Assembly (NCBI RefSeq): GCF_001487165.1
Contig: NZ_LN913005.1
Coordinates: 125,461-189,460 of the forward strand
From: Blautia massiliensis (ex Durand et al. 2017)
Lineage (GTDB): Bacteria; Bacillota; Clostridia; Lachnospirales; Lachnospiraceae
Reading direction: 5' to 3'
Length of the DNA: 64,000 bases
Positions 3,834-16,169 of this stretch are shown here, in pieces (positions within the stretch are counted from its first letter, which is position 1; each line of letters begins with the position of its first letter). The notes below the pieces were generated by a model. It saw nothing but the letters and a program-made list of their open reading frames with translations. It had not been told where the DNA came from and did no database searches. Position numbers and translations under genes: made by a program.

Positions 3834-6800
3834 ATTTCCGGTTTTTGTCCCCGCATAGGGAATGTCCCATGTACCACACCGTTTGATTTCCTCTTTGTTA
3901 TTTCAATTCACGTTCCCACGTGGGGAACGACCCTTTCAATCTCCACGAATCTCTTTGCGTTGATATTTCAATCCACGTTCCCTCGTGGGGAACGACATCA
4001 TCAACCAGGCTATCACTATCTTCTACACTCATTTCAATCCACGTTCCTGTGTGGGGAACGACGGCATATTACCAGAATGCAGCTAACTACTTTGCATTTC
4101 AATCCACGTTCCCGCGTAGGGAACGACGGCTGGAGCTACAGTGATCGCATATGTGATCGGGATTTCAATCCACATTCCTGCGTAGGGAACGACACGAAAT
4201 GCGAAAAAAAATTAAGGTCATATCCAGATTTCAATCCACTTTCCCTCGTGGGGAACGACGATAGCAAGCATCCCAGACATTGCTTCTTTTCCATTTCAAT
4301 CCACGTTCCCTCGTGGGGAACGACTTCCGGATCCGCACGAGATCACCGCAAAGACAGAATTTCAATCCACTTTCCCTCGTGGGGAACGACGGTGTTAGCC
4401 CTATTACAAATACCATTTACTATGATCTCAATCCACGTTCCCTCGTGGGGAACGACACATGTACCACAACTTTTCTGCTGACCTGTGATAATTTCAATCC
4501 ACGTTCCCTCGTGGGGAACGACGGTGGCAGTATACTGTAACTCGTGGAGTAAGCGATTTCAATCCACGTTCCCTCGTGGGGAACGACTATACACCGACAT
4601 GCAGAAGTTGATTATGTTCAATTTCAATCCACGTTCCCTCGTGGGGAACGACCCGGGATCACGATGACATTCACCAGAGCATTGCCATTTCAATCCACGT
4701 TCCCTCGTGGGGAACGACGGTAAAGATAGTGGCCAGGAAAAAGGCGGATATATTTCAATCCACGTTCCCTCGTGGGGAACGACCATGGAGAAACCTCTAA
4801 GTTATCCCAATCAGCAGATTTCAATCCACGTTCCCTCGTGGGGAACGACGAGGTCCTTATTTGATCTTCCTTTCCCCTTGCCGATTTCAATCCACGTTCC
4901 CTCGTGGGGAACGACCACGGGCAGTATGGATAGATCTCTCTGTCTTTTCTATTTCAATCCACGTTCCCTCGTGGGGAACGACGGCCAGGTGGATTCCTGG
5001 CAGCAGTTCTCTGATATTTCAATCCACGTTCCCTCGTGGGGAACGACTGGAAGCACCGCAAATCCGGCATCTGTAACAGAATTTCAATCCACGTTCCCTC
5101 GTGGGGAACGACAATGGAACCGTAGGAGTTACCGTAAATATTTCCATTTCAATCCACGTTCCCTCGTGGGGAACGACTGGGATGACCTGGACGGCCCGCG
5201 GCCGACAGTTATTTCAATCCACGTTCCCTCGTGGGGAACGACGATGGCGATCTTATACTTGAGCGAATCATTCTGATTTCAATCCACGTTCCCTCGTGGG
5301 GAACGACAGCATAGCGGACAGGTTCTTCAATCGCCTTGGAATTTCAATCCACGTTCCCTCGTGGGGAACGACGGCGTTCAAAGATCAGACTACGGTTTTA
5401 TTTGAATTTCAATCCACGTTCCCTCGTGGGGAACGACAATTCAACCTGAGCCACGGCGAGTACATATTCCTTATTTCAATCCACGTTCCCTCGTGGGGAA
5501 CGACAGATGTTGAGCTTCCGGATTTTGAGGCCATCACAATTTCAATCCACGTTCCCTCGTGGGGAACGACGTTCCGGCCACGATTCCCATCGCGGATCCG
5601 TTGATTTCAATCCACGTTCCCTCGTGGGGAACGACCATGTCTTTTTTTGTTTATCTTCTGATAATACTCAATTTCAATCCACGTTCCCTCGTGGGGAACG
5701 ACAGCGGACCTCCGGTCATCTTCATCTCATCCAGGAATTTCAATCCACGTTCCCTCGTGGGGAACGACGATCGTTCCGATTCATCCGTCCATATATGAGT
5801 TTGCATTTCAATCCACGTTCCCTCGTGGGGAACGACCGCCATTCGCGGCCTATTTTTACCAAGGGGTAAGATTTCAATCCACGTTCCCTCGTGGGGAACG
5901 ACTAAATATGTCAAGGCTCTCACCGTTCGGTTTGATATTTCAATCCACGTTCCCTCGTGGGGAACGACCAAGAGTGTACTCTCCAACGTACTCAGCGCCT
6001 TTATTTCAATCCACGTTCCCTCGTGGGGAACGACGATCGTTCCGATTCATCCGTCCATATATGAGTTTGCATTTCAATCCACGTTCCCTCGTGGGGAACG
6101 ACGGATGTCTTCCGCGTATACGTCATACCAGCGATTATTTCAATCCACGTTCCCTCGTGGGGAACGACGAGGATTGCCGGGAAGGATGCCTCTGGATTGT
6201 AATTTCAATCCACGTTCCCTCGTGGGGAACGACAGCGGGCCTCCGGTCATCTTCATCTCATCCAGGAATTTCAATCCACGTTCCCTCGTGGGGAACGACG
6301 ATTGCCGGAGCGACACCGCTCACAGAGGTAACCATTTCAATCCACGTTCCCTCGTGGGGAACGACCCAATATCCTCAACAAAACGCCTTGTTTTATTAAT
6401 TTCAATCCACGTTCCCTCGTGGGGAACGACAGCAAGCTCAATCTGATACATTAATTCAGTCAATATTTCAATCCACGTTCCCTCGTGGGGAACGACTGAT
6501 CTTGCCGATCACTTCGTCGCGGTCATGGTTATTTCAATCCACGTTCCCTCGTGGGGAACGACTTCCCCATGCTATCTGTTCATAAACGGATCCTCATTTC
6601 AATCCACGTTCCCTCGTGGGGAACGACCAGGAGGATTGTGTCCTGGCTTCGATCATCGATATTTCAATCCACGTTCCCTCGTGGGGAACGACGCTCAGGT
6701 CATCCCCGGATGGGAACTTCAAATTCTATTTCAATCCACGTTCCCTCGTGGGGAACGACATTGTTGCCCCAGCCATTGTTTCCCCATCCGAAATTTCAAT

Positions 6801-7287
6801 CCACGTTCCCTCGTGGGGAACGACGGCCAACTACAGCCGTATCCCGGACAGCTTAAAAATTTCAATCCACGTTCCCTCGTGGGGAACGACATAACGCACA
6901 TAGACGTATAATAAAGACAGTTAAAATTTCAATCCACGTTCCCTCGTGGGGAACGACTTTTCAGGAAAGGCTGATACTGTGCAAATATTGTCATTTCAAT
7001 CCACGTTCCCTCGTGGGGAACGACAACATGATATTCAAAAAACAAGCCGAAGAGGATTATTTCAATCCACGTTCCCTCGTGGGGAACGACATCATTCCGG
7101 TTCAAAGTCCGATCATAAGCCGGAATTTCAATCCACGTTCCCTCGTGGGGAACGACGAAGCTGGAAAAGGAATTCATCATCGGTCATCTATTTCAATCCA
7201 CGTTCCCTCGTGGGGAACGACAGCAAGCAAGGGATATTTCAAATATCTCTGGTTCATTTCAATCCACGTTCCCTCGTGGGGAACGAC
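3834..7287 (-). CRISPR. Type I-C CRISPR array, 53 repeats and 52 spacers
   Basis: Repeats are 32 bp; on the plus strand they start ATTTCAATCCACG and end GGGGAACGAC, so in crRNA orientation (minus strand) they start GTCGTTCCCC, contain the hairpin GTTCCC/GGGAAC and end GTGGATTGAAAT, a typical I-C repeat. Spacers are 33-36 nt. Repeat starts run 3834, 3900, 3965, 4031, 4096, 4162, 4228, 4293, 4359, 4425, 4491 and on to 7256. All repeats from 4491 to 7287 look identical. Those at the low-coordinate end are degenerate: 3834 is barely recognisable, and 3900, 4031, 4096, 4162, 4228, 4359 and 4425 carry substitutions. The leader-distal end is therefore at 3834 and the leader end at 7287, next to cas2. 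One spacer occurs twice exactly and another twice with one mismatch. Confidence 0.99.
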
Positions 7288-7447
7288 GGCAAATTTTCAC
7301 AAATATTCTTTGTTTTTTTATGCAATAAATATAATTTTTCTACTTTTTATTATCCCTTCTCTCTTTTCTTTAGTGTTATTCATGTTACTTTTCTGATTTT
7401 TGTAGTGCGAATCCTGCCGGCATTTTATGTGTACTTCTGATTCGCAC
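7288..7447 (-). promoter_or_regulatory. CRISPR leader
   Basis: A+T-rich 160-bp stretch between the leader-proximal repeat and the cas2 stop codon. Its cas2-proximal end holds an inverted repeat, GTGCGAATC (7405-7413) and GATTCGCAC (7439-7447), that begins directly at the cas2 stop and may end the cas transcript. The array-proximal part is runs of A and T. I could not choose a convincing array promoter. Confidence 0.75.
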
Positions 7448-7738
7448 CTACATAATTAAAGGTTGATCTACTGGAATTCCACGTTCTATACCTACATGTT
7501 CTATTTTAGTCTGATAATTATTTCCGAGGTAATAAAAACGTAAGCTATCTTTATTTTTGTCAATAATATCAGACAATATCCCCTTCAAAGCAACACTTTG
7601 AGCGCTATCCAAAATACACTCAAATACAGAATTTTGCACCCTTCTTCCATAATTTGTACATTGCTTCGCCACTTTACGCAAACGAGTTCTTCCTGCAGTT
7701 GTCTCTGTATTTACATCATAAGTAATCACTACCAACAC
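7448..7738 (-). CDS. cas2: CRISPR-associated endonuclease Cas2
   Basis: A 96-residue Cas2, half of the Cas1-Cas2 spacer integrase. The N-terminal beta strand MLVVITYDVNTET with the conserved Asp, the RLRKVAKQCTNYGRRVQNSVFECIL helix-strand segment, and the total length are typical of I-C systems. It is the last gene of the cas operon, 9 nt after cas1 and 160 bp from the array. Confidence 0.97.
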   Translation of the reverse strand: MLVVITYDVNTETTAGRTRLRKVAKQCTNYGRRVQNSVFECILDSAQSVALKGILSDIIDKNKDSLRFYYLGNNYQTKIEHVGIERGIPVDQPLIM

Positions 7739-7747
7739 TTTGTCACC

Positions 7748-8779
7748 TCATTTCCACAAAAACACTGGATAACTGTCCAAATCTCCTCTTAAATATCTTG
7801 CCAACAACATTGCCTGTACATAAGGAACCATTCCCCATTCCACCTTTTCTTTCAAGAACGGATGTGTGATGGTTTCCTTCTTTTTCTTCTGCCATTCTAC
7901 CAACAGCTTTTTTCGCAGCTCATCATCCATCAGAACAGCTCCATTTTCTTTTTTGGTAAAATTCTTTCCATTTACAATCTTTTTGTTAACAAGCGATAAT
8001 ACAAAACGATCTGCCAATACAGCTCTTAATTCCTCTATCATATCCAAAGCCAGTGATACTCTACCTGGTCTTTCGGTATGAAGATATCCCACATAAGGAT
8101 CCAGCCCCACACACTCCAGGGAAGAAGCAATCGTATTTGTCAACAACGTATATACAAAAGACAACATTGCATTCATATTATCTAACGGTGGTCTTTTATT
8201 TCTTCCTTGAAATGAAAAATCCTTTTTCTGTTGCAAAATCATTTCATCAAAAACTCCAAAATACACGCTGGCCGCTTCCCCTTCAAAACCTCTTAATTGT
8301 GCTTTTGATTCACATGTTTGAATTAATCCCAACGTATGTTTCAGCTTTTCTGATGCTATTTTTATTTTGTCCGCATCTACCTGCATACTATGATCTCTAA
8401 CACAGCGTTCCAACACCCATCTTGCATTATACACCTTTCCAAGTATACAGTTTTTTGCAATTTCCAGGCTGATTGCTGAATCCAAACTGCTTGCATACTG
8501 CTGTTCTCGCAAAAGCACATTTCCTCTTGTCTTTCCGGTTATCCTCGCAAGAAATTTTCCCTGGGGCGTCATAAAACAAAGAGAGATATTTTTTTCTGCA
8601 CAAGATCCCATCAATGCCGGACTGACGCCCCTGTATCCAAAGGAAACTATCCCTTCCAGATTATGTAATGGAAGTCTTCCTTTTTCTTTATCCTCTTCAA
8701 AAACAACTATATTTTCTCCATCTAAACCCAAATAGCTGTTTTCAGAAGTTACATACAACGTATTCAAAAGTTTTTTCAT
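7748..8779 (-). CDS. cas1: CRISPR-associated integrase Cas1 (I-C)
   Basis: Cas1 is the catalytic subunit of the spacer integrase. The protein (343 aa from ATG 8779) begins MKKLLNTLYVTSENSYLGLDGEN, the characteristic I-C start, and contains RGFEGEAASVYFGVFD (conserved metal-binding Glu), HTERPGRVSLALDMIEELRA (His and Asp of the active site) and a basic C-terminus. A longer frame to 8851 exists but would overlap cas4 by 76 nt; at 8779 the start shares a 4-nt ATGA with the cas4 stop. Confidence 0.97.
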   Translation of the reverse strand: MKKLLNTLYVTSENSYLGLDGENIVVFEEDKEKGRLPLHNLEGIVSFGYRGVSPALMGSCAEKNISLCFMTPQGKFLARITGKTRGNVLLREQQYASSLDSAISLEIAKNCILGKVYNARWVLERCVRDHSMQVDADKIKIASEKLKHTLGLIQTCESKAQLRGFEGEAASVYFGVFDEMILQQKKDFSFQGRNKRPPLDNMNAMLSFVYTLLTNTIASSLECVGLDPYVGYLHTERPGRVSLALDMIEELRAVLADRFVLSLVNKKIVNGKNFTKKENGAVLMDDELRKKLLVEWQKKKKETITHPFLKEKVEWGMVPYVQAMLLARYLRGDLDSYPVFLWK

Positions 8780-9441
8780 GTCTCTTCCTCCTTCAGCATC
8801 TGGTCTATATAATGTTTCACAGAAACTTGTTTGTTTAATTTGGGCAGACAAAGTTCCTTTAATGAACAGGAATTACACATTTTACCTGTTTTTACCTTCG
8901 GAGTATAACCTCTATTGTAATACTGATGCATCTCTTCAAATATATCTTTGACTGCATTTCTCAGATCCTCTGTAATTTCCACAACTTCTCTTCGTCTTGT
9001 TTCTCCATAAAAAAGAGCTGCTTCAGGTATTGTTGCAGAAAACATTTCTTCGAGACATAAAACCTGTGCCACAAGCTGCAATCTATCGGCATCTGTTGAT
9101 TTTTCTTTTCCTTTTTTGTATTCTACCGGATAAACAGAATACATTCCCCGATGTCCATGAAGCCGTATTCCATCTTCACATTTATGAAATTCTACAAGAT
9201 CACACTCTCCACTCACTCCCATAATTCTTGAAGAAACCGGCAAAGCTCTTACCAAAATAGTATCTTTTCTTTTTTCCGTCAAATATGGATCATGTACCTT
9301 CTGGTGCATCAGTTTTCCAACAGCTGTATGAACATTTTCTGCCCACTGCTGCTCAACATGGATCAATGCCCACTGTCTTCTGCAAAATTTAAAATGCTGT
9401 ATACCTGATATCATCAAATAATCATCTTCTGTATACTCCAT
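8776..9441 (-). CDS. cas4: CRISPR-associated exonuclease Cas4
   Basis: Cas4 trims prespacers and helps choose the PAM during adaptation. The 221-aa protein has the RecB-type nuclease core (VSGECDLVEF with the metal-binding Asp, YPVEYKKGK with the Glu-X-Lys motif) and four cysteines for a 4Fe-4S cluster: one near residue 20 (FKFCRRQW) and three near the C-terminus (CNSCSLKELC). ATG at 9441 touches the cas7 stop; an upstream TTG at 9444 is less likely. Confidence 0.96.
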   Translation of the reverse strand: MEYTEDDYLMISGIQHFKFCRRQWALIHVEQQWAENVHTAVGKLMHQKVHDPYLTEKRKDTILVRALPVSSRIMGVSGECDLVEFHKCEDGIRLHGHRGMYSVYPVEYKKGKEKSTDADRLQLVAQVLCLEEMFSATIPEAALFYGETRRREVVEITEDLRNAVKDIFEEMHQYYNRGYTPKVKTGKMCNSCSLKELCLPKLNKQVSVKHYIDQMLKEEET

Positions 9442-10352
9442 CAAATCATCCTTTTTACTTCAACAGATTCCGGTATTTTATCATTATGAATTTCAACTGT
9501 ATAATCCTGATATCTTCTCGGATATTCTACATTTTCTTTTCGTGTTACTTCAACTGCATCAAACAATTTATATGCCGGACAATCTCCCAATTCTTTACTG
9601 TGCTTAAACACGATCAGTTCACGTACTGACATTTTTCCACGGGCTGCTGAATGGTCATTTTCAAACATATTTATGATCGCATCCCACAGAAGTTCCAGAT
9701 CTTCTTCTGTAAATCCTGTTGTTTTTCGTGCAAGATTTGCAGATATAAAGCCCTCTGCGCGATACAATGCATATGGCACAATACTCTTTCTTCCCATTTC
9801 GGTACTTTTATTTTCGGCATCTTTTTCTGTTGTGATTGCCACACGGGTAATGGTAACTTCCTGACTGATCACTGGGTCGATACTTCTGGCAAATCCAAGC
9901 TGAACTGGGCCACGCACCTGTCCGCAGTTTAAAGAAGCTTTTACAAAAGTAGTCATTACTGCCCCAAAAGTTCTGATATCATAATAATTTTCACACATGT
10001 AATCCCGCAATTTTGAATCCACACCCGGATCACTTTTTTTCAGTTTTTTTAATGCTTCCGTTACTTTCTTATCATCTGTTTCTTTGATTCCAACATTTTC
10101 ACATGCCGTTCGGTCACTTCGATTCAACGGAACATCTTCTTTAATATAAATTTTGTAACCCTGTGCATCCTCTTTTACTGTTTCCACATAATTTCTTATT
10201 TTTCTTTTCAGGCAGACATCCGTAACAAGCCCTAAGCCGCTTTCCGGATCTATTCTTGGCATATTTCCTGCATCCGGATCTCCATTTGGATTACCATTTT
10301 CCACATCAAATAAAACTACAAACTCATATCTGTTTTTAATAACTTCGCTCAT
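9441..10352 (-). CDS. cas7c: Type I-C Cascade backbone subunit Cas7 (Csd2)
   Basis: Cas7 forms the helical backbone of I-C Cascade along the crRNA. The 303-aa product opens with the RAMP strand YEFVVLFDVENGNPNGDPDAGN, the diagnostic Csd2 signature, followed by a central thumb region (TFGAVMTTF, RGPVQLGFARSIDPV) and a C-terminal KHSKELGDCPAYKLFDAV segment. It overlaps the cas8c stop by 4 nt (ATGA). Confidence 0.97.
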   Translation of the reverse strand: MSEVIKNRYEFVVLFDVENGNPNGDPDAGNMPRIDPESGLGLVTDVCLKRKIRNYVETVKEDAQGYKIYIKEDVPLNRSDRTACENVGIKETDDKKVTEALKKLKKSDPGVDSKLRDYMCENYYDIRTFGAVMTTFVKASLNCGQVRGPVQLGFARSIDPVISQEVTITRVAITTEKDAENKSTEMGRKSIVPYALYRAEGFISANLARKTTGFTEEDLELLWDAIINMFENDHSAARGKMSVRELIVFKHSKELGDCPAYKLFDAVEVTRKENVEYPRRYQDYTVEIHNDKIPESVEVKRMI

Positions 10353-12085
10353 CTATTTTCCCTCCCGTTTTCCCAAATACTTTCCTGTTTCTGGTGGTAA
10401 TACCCCAAAATAAATTTTCCTTGTTCCTCCAATGGCAAACGTTTTGGATAAGCTTCTAGCTTACTCACCAATTCGCCCAAAAGATCTTCATATTTTCTTT
10501 TCAAATACCCTTTATCTCTTTCTATTTTTTTTATATGACTATTCTTTAATTTAAACAATACTGGAAATACTGATGCCGGTGTTGCACATGCTGAATTAAA
10601 ATACCGATCTCGAATTGTTGATTTTATTCCAGGATTTGCCTCTGTCTGAATCGACTCCAACACAGAAAATAATCTTCCCAATACATATGCTACATCATTA
10701 GATTCTTCATTTAATCCCATACAGATCTCTCCTTCCGTATTTTTATAATTTTTTATCAGAAATGCCTTAACAATAGAAACTCTTCCCCATGTTACACATC
10801 CCTGCTCAGCCCGTATTCTTATTAATGTATCTGTATACAAACTTGCCGGATACCTGGAATTTTGTAAAATAGCTGAAAACGCCATAGCGGCCATATTGGA
10901 GATTGTTTTTTTATCCCGTGAATTCATATTCACTGTTTCTTTTAACATATCTTCAATTCCAAGATATTCCCGCTCTTCCCATTTAGGTTTTATCATCTGC
11001 ATTCGTTCATAATGACATGCCAGATTTTTCGTAATATTTCCAAATGAACTCTGATAAAAAAATCTTACAGATAACCTGGCAGCATTTGGTGCCAGACATA
11101 AAATATAAAACTTCTGAGATGGATTTAATTCAATGTCATCAATTATGATCTGTTCATCTTTTCTGAGTTTTTCAAAAAATCCATGTACCTCACTTTGATT
11201 ATCTTTTACCGGATTTAACAATGCTAAAAGCGCATCCTGATATTCCGTCTTTGCCTCCTCTGCCCAATATACAATAATAGAATCTCCCAGCGGAAACGTA
11301 TATTTCTTTTGTGCCAGCAAATAATTCAACGCACTTGTGTAAGCAAACTCTGCATATTTTCCGACCGGTGCATTATAGCTCTGTTCTTTTCCATAAGATT
11401 CAAATGATGGTGCATTAAAAGAAACCAAAGCTGCACCACTGGACTGTGCTCCCGGCACCCCTTTTATATTCCTGTGAATTCTTGAAATTTCAGTTTTTTC
11501 TCCTGTTACCAGACAAATTCCACTTATATCTGTTTCCGACTGTTTACTTTCTACATTCCATATTTGCTCTATTTCCTTGTCATCCTGGGCATATTTTTTA
11601 TCCATACAGAATATAAGATTTCCACCATCCGTGATCTCCTCCCAGTTTTCTAAAACAGCAGCATTTTCTTTTGCTTTTTCCGGATTCCATTTATAAAAAA
11701 AAGCACATATAGCCTGTGCCATTTCTCCGGAAGTATTTTTCAACAACTTCAGATGCTTCTCCTTTGCCGCTTCAAAGCATTCTGTAATTCTTTTTCCTGT
11801 ACCACTCTTATCAATTCCAAGCATATATTTCGAATTATCACATAAAAAATTCGCCGCAACTCCGGATGATCGCGTGAGCATTGCCGGAACTTTCATTGTT
11901 TGTGAAATCCAAATCTGTTTCTTCCCTGCCTGTCTCTCCTCCTTCAGCCATAAGATATTCTTTATATCCCCGTCTGTAGACAAATTGATTCCATAAGAAA
12001 CTTTTGCCTGACACCACCCCTGTTTGGGTAATTTTTCTTGTCTTTCCAAATCTTCATAATATTTCACCAATGCCTGCAGTATCAT
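10349..12085 (-). CDS. cas8c: Type I-C Cascade large subunit Cas8c (Csd1)
   Basis: Cas8c recognises the PAM and, in I-C systems, also gives rise to the small subunit from an internal start in its 3' region. The 578-aa protein starts MILQALVKYYEDLERQ and contains the Csd1 segments CLVTGEKTEISRIHRNIKGVPGAQSSG and LVSFNAPSFESYGKEQSYNAPV. It is linked to cas5 upstream by a 4-nt overlap and to cas7 downstream by another. Internal translation of the C-terminal small subunit is known in homologues; I did not map a start here. Confidence 0.96.
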   Translation of the reverse strand: MILQALVKYYEDLERQEKLPKQGWCQAKVSYGINLSTDGDIKNILWLKEERQAGKKQIWISQTMKVPAMLTRSSGVAANFLCDNSKYMLGIDKSGTGKRITECFEAAKEKHLKLLKNTSGEMAQAICAFFYKWNPEKAKENAAVLENWEEITDGGNLIFCMDKKYAQDDKEIEQIWNVESKQSETDISGICLVTGEKTEISRIHRNIKGVPGAQSSGAALVSFNAPSFESYGKEQSYNAPVGKYAEFAYTSALNYLLAQKKYTFPLGDSIIVYWAEEAKTEYQDALLALLNPVKDNQSEVHGFFEKLRKDEQIIIDDIELNPSQKFYILCLAPNAARLSVRFFYQSSFGNITKNLACHYERMQMIKPKWEEREYLGIEDMLKETVNMNSRDKKTISNMAAMAFSAILQNSRYPASLYTDTLIRIRAEQGCVTWGRVSIVKAFLIKNYKNTEGEICMGLNEESNDVAYVLGRLFSVLESIQTEANPGIKSTIRDRYFNSACATPASVFPVLFKLKNSHIKKIERDKGYLKRKYEDLLGELVSKLEAYPKRLPLEEQGKFILGYYHQKQESIWENGRENR

Positions 12086-12744
12086 CGAACCACCTCGCAG
12101 TTTCGCACATCTATTACTCCCTGTTTCATGATTGCTCTAAAAAACATGGGGCTAAGATTCTCTTCATCCGAATAATCAATATCATATAGCATAAATCCAA
12201 AATCTTTTTCCTCTACATCGTCATATGCAGTATGAATTTCCTCTTCATTACACAACTCAAAATTTGCAGGAAATTCCCGACACCCAAAATAAGGCATACT
12301 GTAACATGCGCCTCTTTTCAATCTCCTCATAATAATATCCTTGAATTTCCCTGGATTATCCGTTTCATTTGCTTTCTCCGTCATTTCAAAATGAGCTTCA
12401 ATAACATACTCTACATCACTTAACAACAAAGACGCTCTCTGTACAATTTCCTCTTTACTGCTTAAATATAGGGGTTTCATTCCTCCATTATAGGCTTCAA
12501 GCACTTTACTTGCAGATACCTTACTCTTCACTTCATTTCTTCTTACACTGGTAAATTTAACCGGTTTCTTCACATAAATCTTATCTATACACCATTTCAT
12601 GCCCGGATGCCAGTAAATTGCTTCCAAAATTCCTCTGGCAGCCGACGGTGTTATTACATCATAAGAACACCGTTCTACTTTCATCTCTGGTCTTGAAAAT
12701 AATGCATAATCCCCCCACACTCTGACCTTTACTCCCATTCCCAT
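12082..12744 (-). CDS. cas5c: Type I-C Cascade subunit and pre-crRNA endonuclease Cas5 (Cas5d)
   Basis: In I-C systems Cas5 replaces Cas6: it cleaves the repeat and stays on the 11-nt 5' handle. The protein (about 220 aa) shows VKVRVWGDYALFSRPEMKVERCSYDVITPSAARGILEAIYWHP, the classic Cas5d N-terminus, and later RGACYSMPYFGCREFPANFE. ATG 12744 is favoured over GTG 12750 because GAGGG is better spaced. It begins 19 nt after the stop of the DUF3990-partner gene, so the cascade genes are probably co-transcribed with that pair. Confidence 0.96.
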   Translation of the reverse strand: MGMGVKVRVWGDYALFSRPEMKVERCSYDVITPSAARGILEAIYWHPGMKWCIDKIYVKKPVKFTSVRRNEVKSKVSASKVLEAYNGGMKPLYLSSKEEIVQRASLLLSDVEYVIEAHFEMTEKANETDNPGKFKDIIMRRLKRGACYSMPYFGCREFPANFELCNEEEIHTAYDDVEEKDFGFMLYDIDYSDEENLSPMFFRAIMKQGVIDVRNCEVVR

Positions 12745-12763
12745 AGGCACTTTCCCTCTTTTC

Positions 12764-13204
12764 TCATATTATTTCACCAGCTTTATAACATGCTGCTATA
12801 TAATCTCGTGATTGATAATAAAAATCTGTATTATAGTCCGAAATATGTGCATCAATCCAGGAATGATAAATTTCCCATATTCCCTTTTCAAGTTCTGTAT
12901 CATCGTATATGTCTTCTATTAATCTCTCATATACTTCTCCAATATCCCAGTAATCCGGAATTGCATACCTGCATATTGATACATTGTCAAATTCGCCCTC
13001 CGGAATATCACATTGCTCTGTAAATTCTGCCGCAACTTTTTCTATTGGCTCACAGTGAAAGACATCCGCATAGTTATATATTCGCTTTATATTTTCCATT
13101 CCAAGATAATCCGTAACTTTCCACCGACGTTGTTTTTGAGTTCGTCCTATGTACTCGATCAAACTACAGGTAAAAAACAAAGCATTATTATTTTTTCTCG
13201 CCAT
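12764..13204 (-). CDS. Partner of the DUF3990 protein; candidate antitoxin/accessory protein
   Basis: Protein of 146 aa starting MARKNNNALFFTCSLIEYIGR (ATG 13204, preceded by GTGAGG); an in-frame ATG at 13216 would add four residues. The N-terminal 60 residues resemble the small DUF3791-like proteins often encoded beside DUF3990 genes; the C-terminal half is acidic and aromatic (YERLIEDIYDDTELEKGIWEIYHSWIDAH) and I do not recognise it. It overlaps the DUF3990 gene by 17 nt and precedes cas5 by 19 nt. Pairing and overlap suggest an antitoxin role for an ADP-ribosyltransferase-like toxin, but this is inference. It is not a known cas gene. Confidence 0.7.
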   Translation of the reverse strand: MARKNNNALFFTCSLIEYIGRTQKQRRWKVTDYLGMENIKRIYNYADVFHCEPIEKVAAEFTEQCDIPEGEFDNVSICRYAIPDYWDIGEVYERLIEDIYDDTELEKGIWEIYHSWIDAHISDYNTDFYYQSRDYIAACYKAGEII

Positions 13205-13655
13205 AAACAACCTCACTTCCTACAAATTTCAATGTATCCAGTGCTGAAATTGTATGAAAACTGATTTGATGCGTTGGATACTTGAATTTTACCAATTCCC
13301 AGAAAGCAGCTCTTGAAATCTTTCCATCCAGATAATTTTGCAGATAATTGTAGATTGTATCATCTGCCATTGGTCCTTCCACAATATCATACTGATGTGC
13401 CTGTCCCTTTCGACAGGAAATAATAAAATCCAGCCATTCTTCCGTCATTTTATCGAATTTAAGAATATTTAATCTCTGATTTTCTGTATACTCATACTTG
13501 TTAATATATCCTTTTTTACCATATCTTATAGCCCATCGTTCTGCCTGCTTTTCAATATTTGTACAATAAAAACCAAAATAAAAATCTTTGTTAAATCTGG
13601 CTTTTCTGATTTCCGGATATTCCACTACCTCTTTGCTCCCATGATATAGAATCAT
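13188..13655 (-). CDS. DUF3990 family, ADP-ribosyltransferase-like putative toxin
   Basis: Protein of 155 aa from ATG 13655, which has an AAAGGAG site 6-7 nt upstream. Visible motifs are LYHGS at residues 3-7, DFYFGFYCT at 24-32 and QAERWA at 37-42, the DUF3990 pattern that resembles the H-Y-E class of ADP-ribosyltransferase folds (HG, then GFYxT). The assignment to an ART fold is from family knowledge and motif resemblance, not proof of activity. The gene is the first of the transcript that continues into cas5-cas2. The frame extends upstream without a stop through a Lys/Arg-rich 22-codon stretch to an ATG at 13721, which lies at the predicted transcription start. Together with its partner it looks like a toxin-antitoxin-type module nested in a cas operon. 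Confidence 0.8.
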   Translation of the reverse strand: MILYHGSKEVVEYPEIRKARFNKDFYFGFYCTNIEKQAERWAIRYGKKGYINKYEYTENQRLNILKFDKMTEEWLDFIISCRKGQAHQYDIVEGPMADDTIYNYLQNYLDGKISRAAFWELVKFKYPTHQISFHTISALDTLKFVGSEVVYGEKK

Positions 13656-13725: not shown

Positions 13726-13754
13726 AATATACTACACTCATCCAAAATATACAA
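13726..13754 (-). promoter_or_regulatory. Promoter of the DUF3990-partner-cas5-cas2 operon
   Basis: Minus strand -35 TTGTAT (13754-13749) and -10 TATATT (13731-13726), 17-bp spacer, predicted start near 13719. The guide-matching site lies just upstream: a Cascade-length protospacer starting at 13789 would end next to this -35. Confidence 0.65.
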
Positions 13755-13772: not shown

Positions 13773-13792
13773 TTACATTTAAATTTATTGAA
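13773..13792 (-). promoter_or_regulatory. Putative Cascade target site (PAM TTC plus 17-nt partial protospacer)
   Basis: On the minus strand TTC (13792-13790) is followed by AATAAATTTAAATGTAA (13789-13773). The spacer-like part of the nearby guide RNA reads AATAATTTTAAATGTAA, so 16 of 17 positions agree and the only mismatch is position 6, which is flipped out in type I crRNA-DNA hybrids. Positions 18-20 no longer match, as expected for a site that is bound but not cleaved. TTC is the known I-C PAM. The site overlaps the -35 of the guide RNA's own promoter and lies directly upstream of the -35 of the toxin/cas promoter. Confidence 0.7.
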
Positions 13793-13816
13793 TTCTTTTT
13801 ATTTATATATTATATT
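13788..13816 (+). promoter_or_regulatory. Promoter of the CreA/CreR-like RNA
   Basis: Plus strand -35 TTGAAT (13788-13793), 17-bp spacer, -10 TATATT (13811-13816), predicted start near 13823. The -35 overlaps the PAM and first seed bases of the target site on the opposite strand, so Cascade bound there would also be expected to block this promoter. Confidence 0.6.
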
Positions 13817-13822
13817 TATAGT

Positions 13823-13980
13823 ATGTCAGAAAACATTTTAATGCCTATGAAGGCAGGCGACTTGCTTGATTCGATTAAAATGGTTCCTGTGGATTGAAAT
13901 AATAATTTTAAATGTAACCGTGTAGAATTAGAACAGGGAGATTAAGGTTTTTCCACCTTAATCTCCCTGCTCTAATCTAC
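13823..13980 (+). ncRNA. CreA/CreR-like guide RNA with a solitary degenerate CRISPR repeat
   Basis: Plus-strand RNA inferred from a promoter, a repeat remnant and a terminator. Bases 13889-13900 are GTGGATTGAAAT, identical to the 3' end of the array repeat and including the 11-nt handle left by Cas5d cleavage. The upstream part of the repeat is degenerate, but an alternative stem exists: AACATTTTAAT (13832-13842) pairs with ATTAAAATGGTT (13874-13885), with an inner GCCT/AGGC hairpin (13844-13855). The spacer-like part starts at 13901 and matches the site at 13773-13789. No second repeat follows; instead a 25-bp stem ends the RNA. CreA (antitoxin) and CreR (cas autorepressor) RNAs of this design are known in other CRISPR subtypes; the assignment here is inference from sequence. 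Confidence 0.7.
13922..13980. terminator. Long stem between the guide RNA and cas3 (convergent terminator)
   Basis: GTAGAATTAGAACAGGGAGA... (13922-13947) pairs with 13956-13980 over about 25 bp with one mismatch and one bulge; the loop is TTTTTCCA. It lies between the convergent ends of cas3 (stop at 13987) and the guide RNA and probably ends both, although U-tracts are weak. It separates cas3 from the downstream cas genes, which therefore need their own promoter. Confidence 0.7.
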
Positions 13981-13986
13981 ATATTT

Positions 13987-16122
13987 TCACAACCAAACTG
14001 CCATGCCACAGTCAACCTCAAGATTCAGTCCTGTCTCCTCTGAATATTGTTCTAAATCTGTCAGTTCATAGAAATCCTTTATATCTTCCGAAACCAGCTT
14101 CAGCATCCCCGCATCATTATATTTCTCAAATTCCTGTTTATACAAATTCACACAATATTGTACAGCCCGTCTCATTCCGGATTTTGTAAAACCTTTATTT
14201 TTCAGATCCTGTATCACTTCCTGAGCATCTTCTTCCTGATTTACAAAAACGGTTACCGTGTTTTCATCTATCAGTTTAAACTCTCTTTCCACTGTAGCAA
14301 AATGATGCCATCCCCCATTAAACTCTTCGCAGATTTTCTTTTTATCCAAACTTTCACCTCGCATATGATAAAGCATTTCAAAGTATCTTGTTACAGTCTG
14401 CATATCTTCAATTTTACATTCATTCGCAAGCAGCGCTTTCGAAACATCCATCTGCTGTCTCTGCCCTGGAACTTTTTCAGCATCATCAAACTGAAAAATC
14501 ACCACTTTGCTTTCTTCTATCGTCCGTTTTCCCTCACGATTACACCTTCCTGCCGCCTGAATGATAGAATCTATTCCTGAAAGCTGTCTGTATACTGTAT
14601 AAAAATCAAGATCTACTCCTGCCTCTACCAGACTTGTTGAAATTACAATGCACTTTTTCCCTTCTCTCAATCGTTCTTTTATCTGCTTTAACATACGCTT
14701 TCTATGTTTTGGATACATGCTCGTAGATAAATGATAAACGCCATCTTCTCTCATAGCATTATAAATTTTTTGAGCTTTCTTTTTTGTATTCACAATGCAT
14801 AATGCCTGTGTTTCTCTTAACAGACATTCTTCCACGTCTTCTTCTGACAATTTTCCATCGTTTTCAAAGTGAACTCTTTTAAAAAACTCAAACTGTTCCT
14901 CTGTCCTTGGACAAAGCTCAGTAATCTGCTTTATATTGCAAAAAAAAGCATCCAATGCCGGTTGTGTAGCTGTACATAATACTGCACTCACCTTATAATT
15001 TATCACCAGTTCTTCAATTGCTGTCAGACAGGGTTTCAAATAGTCATTTGGCAACATCTGTGCTTCATCAAATATGATCACACTATTTGCCATATTATGT
15101 AATTTTCTGCATTTTGAAGATTTATTTGAAAACAAGGATTCAAAAAATTGTACATTCGTTGTAACTACTACTGGTTTATCCCAGTTTTCAGAAGCAAGCT
15201 GCATAGGTTTCAGTTCTTCTGCTTCCTCATAATCTATGTTGCAATGATTTTCCAGAACATTTTCATCTCCTAATATCCTTCGAAAAACTGCTGCATTTTG
15301 TTCGATAATACTGGTATAAGGTATCACATAAATAATACGTTTCATGTGATGCTTAACTGCATGCCTTAATGCAAATGCAAGCGATGCAACCGTTTTACCT
15401 CCACCAGTCGGAACCGTCAGCCGAAAAAGGCCTTTTTCTCTCTCTCCGTTTTCCAGGCAAGCTTTTAAAATCTCTGTTCTTCTGCCATTTACACTTTCTG
15501 TTTCTGTATTTTTCAGCCACTCTGTTATATATTTTTCCAATTTATCCAGAAGCACCTGTATCTCTTGCCCCTGCTGTCGTCCCGATCTTTCTTCTGTCAT
15601 AAATTCTTCTGTATCAAGAAAATCGGCATCGACAAGACAAGAATACATCATTCTCGTAAACATACTTAAAGAAAAATTTAAATCCTTCGTTTTCTCTACA
15701 TTAACTGGTGATGTTTTTAACTCTGGAATCTTCACTTCTTTTTTGTATGCATAAAAATCTTCTATTTTCTTCTTTCTTCTTCCAAGTGTAGTAGATGAAT
15801 TTCCTGTATCTGTGCTGACGCCATAATCGGATAAGCCAGCATGATGTCCCGCAATACACATCTCCAAAAACGGATACATCCCACCCAATTCCATGCAAAC
15901 TCTTGCTCCTGCTGTTGCATGATCCACTTTTATTTCTTCTCCACGAATCCGACGTTGAAATTTATCGCTATATTTTCCGATATCATGCAGCATTCCACAG
16001 CAATATCCCCAATCTCCTTTTTCAAAAACTTCTGCAAAATCTTTTGCTTTTTCTGCCGTTCCCTGCAAATGCTCTAATATACTTTGTTCACGTTCACCAT
16101 CACAATGTGCAATATAATTCAT
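13987..16122 (-). CDS. cas3: CRISPR-associated helicase-nuclease Cas3 (HD plus SF2 helicase)
   Basis: Cas3 is recruited by Cascade to nick and degrade target DNA. The protein (711 aa from ATG 16122; an in-frame ATG at 16137 would add five residues) has an N-terminal HD nuclease (CGMLHDIGKYSDKFQ, then KVDHATAGA and AGHHAGLSD), a Walker A box (LTVPTGGGKTVASLAFALRH), a DEAD-type box (VIIFDEAQML), motif III (LCTATQPAL) and the C-terminal helicase half (VISTSLVEAGVDLDF, QAAGRCNREGKR). It has its own promoter and is followed by a strong stem, so it can be expressed apart from the other cas genes. Confidence 0.97.
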   Translation of the reverse strand: MNYIAHCDGEREQSILEHLQGTAEKAKDFAEVFEKGDWGYCCGMLHDIGKYSDKFQRRIRGEEIKVDHATAGARVCMELGGMYPFLEMCIAGHHAGLSDYGVSTDTGNSSTTLGRRKKKIEDFYAYKKEVKIPELKTSPVNVEKTKDLNFSLSMFTRMMYSCLVDADFLDTEEFMTEERSGRQQGQEIQVLLDKLEKYITEWLKNTETESVNGRRTEILKACLENGEREKGLFRLTVPTGGGKTVASLAFALRHAVKHHMKRIIYVIPYTSIIEQNAAVFRRILGDENVLENHCNIDYEEAEELKPMQLASENWDKPVVVTTNVQFFESLFSNKSSKCRKLHNMANSVIIFDEAQMLPNDYLKPCLTAIEELVINYKVSAVLCTATQPALDAFFCNIKQITELCPRTEEQFEFFKRVHFENDGKLSEEDVEECLLRETQALCIVNTKKKAQKIYNAMREDGVYHLSTSMYPKHRKRMLKQIKERLREGKKCIVISTSLVEAGVDLDFYTVYRQLSGIDSIIQAAGRCNREGKRTIEESKVVIFQFDDAEKVPGQRQQMDVSKALLANECKIEDMQTVTRYFEMLYHMRGESLDKKKICEEFNGGWHHFATVEREFKLIDENTVTVFVNQEEDAQEVIQDLKNKGFTKSGMRRAVQYCVNLYKQEFEKYNDAGMLKLVSEDIKDFYELTDLEQYSEETGLNLEVDCGMAVWL

Positions 16123-16169
16123 CTTCTTCTCTTCCATTTACAACACCGTACCCTCACTACAAGTTATAT

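Follow-up and report, generated by a model that had tools for sequence, protein, structure and literature searches.

The closest described systems are CreR, CreTA and CrePA. CreR, the cas-regulating RNA, is named for types I-B, I-E and V-A (PMC13131331), and a review speaks of it for 'Type I' broadly and describes it as generally uncoupled from a toxin gene (PMC12737573). CreTA is described for types I-B and I-F (PMC9458426, PMC8501985, PMC10097628), and CrePA, in which the toxin is a protein, is already in print (PMC12737573). The term 'I-C' was looked for without success in the main text of PMC12737573, of PMC9458426 and of PMC8501985, as was 'type I-C' in PMC10097628. Among the titles listed by literature searches in which subscription papers were mostly absent, none concerned a comparable I-C guide, a link between DUF3990 and CRISPR, or PDC-M10. 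Here, we describe a candidate guide in a 64,000-nucleotide (nt) stretch of Blautia massiliensis (ex Durand et al. 2017) DNA (contig NZ_LN913005.1, positions 125,461 to 189,460), hereafter the window. Sequence comparison indicates that it is very probably a CreR/CreA-like guide RNA through which a type I-C Cascade silences the operon encoding it. That operon is headed by the genes for a DUF3990 protein and its partner, X.

In the region between cas3 and DUF3990, the plus strand carries a solitary half-repeat, GTGGATTGAAAT (13889-13900), which is identical to the 3' end of the CRISPR array repeat and is the one plus-strand copy in the whole window. Positions 13890-13900 presumably form a CRISPR RNA (crRNA)-like handle of 11 nt, the handle length in type I-C. 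As in CreR, this repeat-derived handle stands alone outside the array, and the same holds for 32 guides across the loci compared. It is followed by a spacer-like guide segment (13901-13926, plus strand, with a tentative 3' end), the first 17 nt of which match a target. Guide bases 13901-13917 read AATAATTTTAAATGTAA and the minus strand at 13789-13773 reads AATAAATTTAAATGTAA, so that 16 of 17 positions are identical and the sole mismatch falls on position 6. The target site, protospacer positions 1-17, lies at 13773-13789 on the minus strand (position 1 being 13789) and is flanked by a TTC protospacer-adjacent motif (PAM) at 13790-13792 on the same strand. An earlier note on this DNA had placed half-repeat, guide, site and TTC at these coordinates, and all of them were confirmed on re-reading the sequence. 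The identity it had noted between the half-repeat and the repeat's 3' end likewise holds for the array of 45 exact repeats.

This arrangement is exact, and chance is rejected. When a TTC-flanked inverted partner within 300 base pairs (bp) was demanded, with full agreement at the 15 positions 1-5, 7-11 and 13-17, position 13901 alone qualified among 60,801 positions, a scan that covered the window outside approximately 5001-7400 and the 400 bases at either end. Among 20,000 regions randomized to first order at equal composition, none reached a 15/15 match with TTC. An independent repeat search recovered the same inverted pair of guide and target, and the 17-nt site with its TTC, leaving positions 6 and 12 free, occurs a single time in the 3.7 Mb genome.

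Relatives of the locus were taken as the best 80 of 232 DUF3990 relatives. The close set comprises the window and L004-L037 (n=35), of which 34 contain at least one cas gene and one, L035, contains none. Half-repeat and guide are present in 26 of these 35 loci (the window, L004-L006, L008, L010-L012, L014, L015, L017, L018, L020-L024, L027-L032, L034, L036 and L037). The contig ends before the guide region in L007, L009 and L016, and on the guide side L013, L019 and L035 have a broken cas locus or none. In L021, about 40 nt separate cas3 from DUF3990, and the guide is found before cas3, where its TTC site matches at 14/15; in L029 the guide stands beside cas3 with two 14/15 sites, and about 2 kb of extra DNA precedes DUF3990.

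The guides differ between loci: 24 of 31 reach at least 13/15, with 21 distinct seeds. Co-variation was tested with 23 strict-handle guides, each scored over the same 15 positions against the TTC sites of every locus (TTC was required except in one initial scan). The mean score was 13.1/15 at a guide's own site vs 9.5/15 at the sites of other loci, and at least 13/15 was attained by 17/23 own pairs vs 21/506 swapped ones. The own site was the strict best in 14/23 and the best or tied in 16/23. When TTC was not required, the best match was still TTC-flanked in 19/23 of these guides, the exceptions being L017, L020, L031 and L034. The earlier note had set the absence of spacer-target co-variation in relatives as evidence against its proposal; co-variation is present, the sum of own-site scores being reached in 0 of 100,000 permutations.

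Among the 24 guides with at least 13/15, matches amount to 96-100% at positions 1-5, 38% at 6, 88-100% at 7-11, 21% at 12, 71-96% at 13-17 and 17-38% at 18-24. Positions 6 and 12 were unscored, and their freedom is therefore not a product of selection. The high match at scored positions is partly produced by site selection, and we therefore held out positions 13-17 and picked sites on 1-5 and 7-11 only. This gave picks for 28/32 own pairs (L029 added) vs 56/992 swapped pairs. Own picks matched at 77% for 13-17, 25% for 12 and 18, and 29% for 19-24; swapped picks matched at 57% for 13-17, which we take to reflect the relatedness of the loci. On these alignments, the match pattern is the type I Cascade pairing rule, with the match ending at 17 and at chance level from 18 on. 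Pairing at 1-5 and 7-11 next to TTC is also the CreTA arrangement, and mutation of an I-B CreA is described as showing that 1-5 and 7-11 are needed while 6 and 12 are indifferent (PMC8501985). Co-variation and the position rule in relatives support the earlier proposal that a guide RNA of the Cascade type is directed against the promoter of the operon.

Upstream of the handle lies a feature absent from the earlier note's reasoning, a degenerate repeat hairpin (13827-13889, plus strand) with arms at 13827-13842 and 13874-13889 that are 88% complementary. In the window it was found by folding a longer stretch, in which the long stem persists around inserted loop sequence. Across loci, a stem reaching 3.5 pair units directly 5' of the handle is found in 25/31 guides with 14 different 5' arms, compared with a mean of 11.5 and a maximum of 20 guides in 300 shuffles; examples are CAGG-loop-CCTG, CTGG-CCAG, CAGAG-CTCTG and CAATCAA-TTGATTG, among others. 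The loop in the window includes a copy of a dispersed repeat (13848-13881), a 22-mer of which has 11 genome copies at up to three mismatches, the window copy included, and none in the backward control. Several similar copies stand in a row, by eye, at L003:1300-1960. An open reading frame of 24 amino acids that starts at 13823 and, by eye, ends within the handle was weighed as a possible leader peptide but dismissed because its 13848-13881 part resembles this dispersed repeat.

That guide and site are a decayed single-spacer array or a chance inverted duplication without function is very improbable. Solitary half-repeats can indeed be array remnants, and the site is AT-rich, but co-variation, the freedom of positions 6 and 12, hairpin conservation and placement in a promoter region all speak against such debris. 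Co-variation opposes it as an explanation for the loci at large; in the window itself, the copy may nonetheless be inactive.

The placement in question is that of consensus matches to promoter boxes. On the minus strand at 13726-13754, a candidate operon promoter consists, by eye, of a -35-like box TTGTAT (13754-13749) and a -10-like box TATATT (13731-13726) with a spacing of 17; a scripted search returned the same -10 but TGTATA one base on, with a spacing of 16. The operon -35-like box accordingly begins at protospacer position 36 by eye and 37 by script. On the plus strand, the guide has its own putative promoter, with a -35-like box TTGAAT (13788-13793) that overlaps the PAM and protospacer positions 1-2, and a -10-like box TATATT (13811-13816) at a spacing of 17. 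The best guide -35-like box sits at the window's offset in eight loci (the window, L004, L008, L011, L012, L014, L017 and L020); in the remaining loci it sits elsewhere, mostly 20-31 nt further on. Downstream of the guide, folding and repeat search revealed a strong inverted repeat (13927-13976, plus strand), a possible terminator. Separately, five loci (L006, L018, L021, L028 and L029) have tandem target sites for one guide, 22-27 nt apart, and two Cascades might bind next to each other there.

From these features we infer the following mechanism. A small RNA starting near 13823 would fold into the repeat-like hairpin, carry the complete 11-nt I-C handle and continue into the guide. Type I-C systems lack Cas6, and Cas5c processes crRNA instead; Cas5c would likewise trim this RNA. 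The I-C Cascade would then bring the guide to the TTC-flanked site (13773-13792). A full R-loop brings Cas3 cutting; because the match stops at position 17, Cascade would bind without a full R-loop and so without cutting. Once bound, Cascade would extend to the -35 region of the operon promoter on the minus strand and would also overlap the guide's own -35-like box, repressing operon and guide alike. Where free Cascade becomes scarce, through crRNA load, an anti-CRISPR or mutation, the cas genes and DUF3990-X would be derepressed together.

The locus is of type I-C and runs in the order cas3, guide region, DUF3990, X, cas5, cas8c, cas7, cas4, cas1, cas2, with the genes all on the minus strand. 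By profile match, cas3 (13987-16137) lies upstream of the guide region. DUF3990 (13188-13655) and X (12764-13216) are followed, 13 nt after X, by cas5c (12082-12750) and then by cas8c (Csd1; 10349-12085) and cas7c (9441-10352), all three again profile matches. Further downstream are cas4 (8776-9444; Pfam Cas_Cas4, 6e-22), cas1 (7748-8851, start uncertain; Pfam Cas_Cas1, 1e-101, with 7748-8773 searched) and cas2 (7448-7738; Pfam CRISPR_Cas2, 3.8e-25). The operon that the earlier note gave as 'DUF3990-cas5-cas2' omitted X as well as cas8, cas7, cas4 and cas1, and is to be read as DUF3990-X-cas5-cas8-cas7-cas4-cas1-cas2. In place of an RNA toxin, for which no specific search was made, the predicted transcript from the targeted promoter would encode DUF3990 and X along with Cas proteins. 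The suggestion in the earlier note that Cascade controls its own level stands as a matter of anatomy, and of anatomy only, since the operon includes cas5-cas8-cas7. The array (3965-7287, minus strand) holds 45 exact 32-nt repeats; in it, identical 100-nt repeat-spacer-repeat units at 5737-5836 and 6003-6102 mark a duplicated spacer.

DUF3990 of the window matches a single Pfam family, PF13151 (1.7e-52), and is thus free of the KilA-N domain typical of CreP as far as this Pfam search goes. In PADLOC it is PDC-M10A (2e-81; next PDC-M13B, 2.3e-46), and X is PDC-M10B (3.4e-67). The two genes are adjacent, as the PADLOC candidate defence system PDC-M10 requires, and the same names were obtained for all five relatives tried (L004, L012, L022, L037 and L139). 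X adjoins DUF3990 in 34/34 loci of L004-L037 and 43/46 of L038-L083 (77/80 relatives). The structural model of DUF3990 (predicted local distance difference test score, pLDDT, 89) gave weak Foldseek matches to ADP-ribosyltransferase (ART)-like folds, none at E <=0.001, among them PARP1 (probability 0.96, E 4.9e-3) and a RES toxin (0.96, E 0.019). A DUF3990 profile run against PDB sequences returned one match, a ribosomal protein at E 0.073, which we take as chance. The model of X (pLDDT 93.7) is all-helical, and X, a putative antitoxin or immunity protein, has no Pfam match up to E 10 and no NCBIfam match up to E 1. DUF3990-X is most likely a module of the ADP-ribosylation toxin-antitoxin or abortive-infection type that would back up CRISPR, a role less sure than the guide and its repression of the operon.

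How far guide and DUF3990 belong together was also seen in I-C loci of the family in general. Among 250 same-family genomes, cas8c is present in 54, the window's included, and 54 loci were taken from the 53 others. Guides occur in 11/54 of these loci: in 5/6 with DUF3990 upstream of cas5 vs 6/47 without DUF3990 (Fisher p 0.0009, not corrected for relatedness), and in 0/1 (L108) with DUF3990 between cas8 and cas7. The six DUF3990 I-C loci appear to be genomes already among the DUF3990 relatives and were not counted twice in tests. The automated scan gave 8/54, with L085, L092 and L120 added from locus inspection; it was lower because it demanded all of 1-5 and at least 12/15 (L085 and L092 are weak, and L120 has a mismatch at 2). 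The same scan of cas coding sequence in these loci gave 0 control hits. A plus-strand half-repeat also stands between cas3 and cas5 at L088:5798; it has no matching TTC site nearby (best 8/15).

Beyond the close set, GGRTTGAAAY was found in the up to 500 bp upstream of DUF3990 in 0/46 further loci (L038-L083); the looser ATTGAAA was found there once on the divergent strand and four times on the other strand. In two loci of a distant I-C operon (L053:8010-8892 and L108:8319-9201), DUF3990-X lies between cas8 and cas7. No half-repeat of this type was found in either, and the array repeat of L108 is without GGATTG.

The association of guide and DUF3990 would fit a CreTA/CrePA-type addiction, in which the guide is an RNA antitoxin that silences the toxin DUF3990 and the loss of Cascade harms the cell. 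The bias of 5/6 vs 6/47, the weak matches to ART folds (PARP1 and the RES toxin among them), and the published protein-toxin CrePA (PMC12737573) all point this way. However, X directly follows DUF3990 and would be released alongside it, and guides occur without DUF3990 in L084, L091, L102, L106, L120 and L135. Moreover, G264, a congeneric genome assembled into one contig and rated 100% complete, retains a DUF3990-X pair 91/84% identical to that of the window, with no Cas5 match, no Cas8c match and no GTGGATTGAAAT anywhere in the genome; a promoter-like TTGCGA-18-TATAAT lies upstream of this pair by eye. A further DUF3990-X pair, more distant in sequence, is present on C4 of the genome to which the window belongs, with no half-repeat within the surrounding 2.4 kb. 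Given the G264 and C4 pairs, expression of DUF3990-X seems to be tolerated without Cascade, presumably owing to X. Because of X, G264 and the guides without DUF3990, we consider addiction unlikely and no longer follow the earlier note in making a derepressed lone toxin the guard of the CRISPR system.

Guides without DUF3990 lead to the reverse account, a pure CreR autoregulation of the cas genes in which DUF3990-X is a mere passenger at the head of the operon and nothing is gained from co-regulating it. The guide lies between cas3 and cas5 in L091, L106 and L135 and before cas3 in L084 and L120, in all five without DUF3990. In L102, it is located before a Schlafen AlbA_2 gene that takes the DUF3990 slot, so the cargo varies; this gene (L102:4323-5774), between guide target and cas5, encodes a 483-amino-acid Schlafen AlbA_2/winged-helix protein by Pfam. 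Yet loci of several named genera place DUF3990-X between cas3 and cas5, the pair accompanies the guide more often than not, and the other I-C clade (L053/L108) holds it between cas8 and cas7. With addiction weakened, a co-induced defence and a passenger are the two readings left, the passenger being slightly the less probable and neither more likely than not. Since guides occur without DUF3990, the distribution suggests that autoregulation is the basic role and DUF3990-X a co-regulated cargo, and the cargo at the operon-head slot may be interchangeable.

Several observations weigh against repression of the operon by a Cascade-bound guide. Of 31 guides, seven are weaker (9-12/15: L005, L014, L017, L020, L031, L034 and L135), although in each of the seven the best TTC site still matches at positions 1-5, and L017, L020 and L031 look shifted one base further on by eye. 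No guide was found in L025, L026 and L033 (3/35), where cas3 lies directly upstream and the whole loci were searched. The stem test failed in 6/31 (the window, L014, L028, L036, L084 and L102), the window failing because its loop exceeds the length allowed by the test. The operon -35-like box lies at protospacer 25-37 in 12/25 usable other loci, at 41-89 in 11/25 and beyond 300 in 2/25; this comparison left out L034, L036, L037 and L106 (the one-strand script missed the site), L135 and L029. No clear T run follows the inverted repeat at 13927-13976, X is without a fold match (best E 2.9), and the guide occurs in only 6/47 I-C loci without DUF3990, which may be an underestimate because some of these repeats end differently.

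Building on Cascade-guided repression, a further reading is that a composite immune operon uses the I-C Cascade as its sensor, the guide holding down an ART-type abortive-infection module, cas5-cas8-cas7 and itself. We put this forward tentatively, as a real possibility. If it is true, a Cascade inhibitor would release more Cascade and a second defence line together, and the slot would be interchangeable, holding DUF3990-X, a Schlafen AlbA_2 protein or nothing.

When comparing the locus with CreR, the likeness lies in a solitary crRNA-like RNA that partly matches the promoter of its own cas operon (PMC13131331, PMC12948488, PMC12737573). It differs in that the system is type I-C, processing is expected by Cas5c, and a candidate two-gene defence module heads the operon; the guided operon is headed by PDC-M10 in the window, with homologs in 34 relatives, whereas six guides are without a PDC-M10 pair. 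With CreTA it shares the degenerate ectopic repeat and, as described for the I-B case, the TTC PAM and a seed of 1-5 and 7-11 (PMC8501985), and it resembles the single-repeat form of CreTA with a terminator in place of the second repeat. The regulated product here is a protein pair followed by cas genes, not the RNA toxin creT. CrePA is similar in that a crRNA-like guide represses a CRISPR-linked protein gene, but CreP is typically a KilA-N protein acting via FtsZ (PMC12737573), whereas the ART-like DUF3990 comes with a second protein as its partner. For PDC-M10, DUF3990 and X correspond to PDC-M10A and PDC-M10B, and Cascade control is no part of the PADLOC name. The locus would place this candidate defence pair under CRISPR control, so that a role as anti-CRISPR back-up or as passenger becomes testable. 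The natural guide-target pairs read out the I-C pairing rule in the segments 1-5, 7-11 and 13-17. On sequence evidence, the guide would extend Cascade-guided promoter control to type I-C, a subtype that lacks Cas6.
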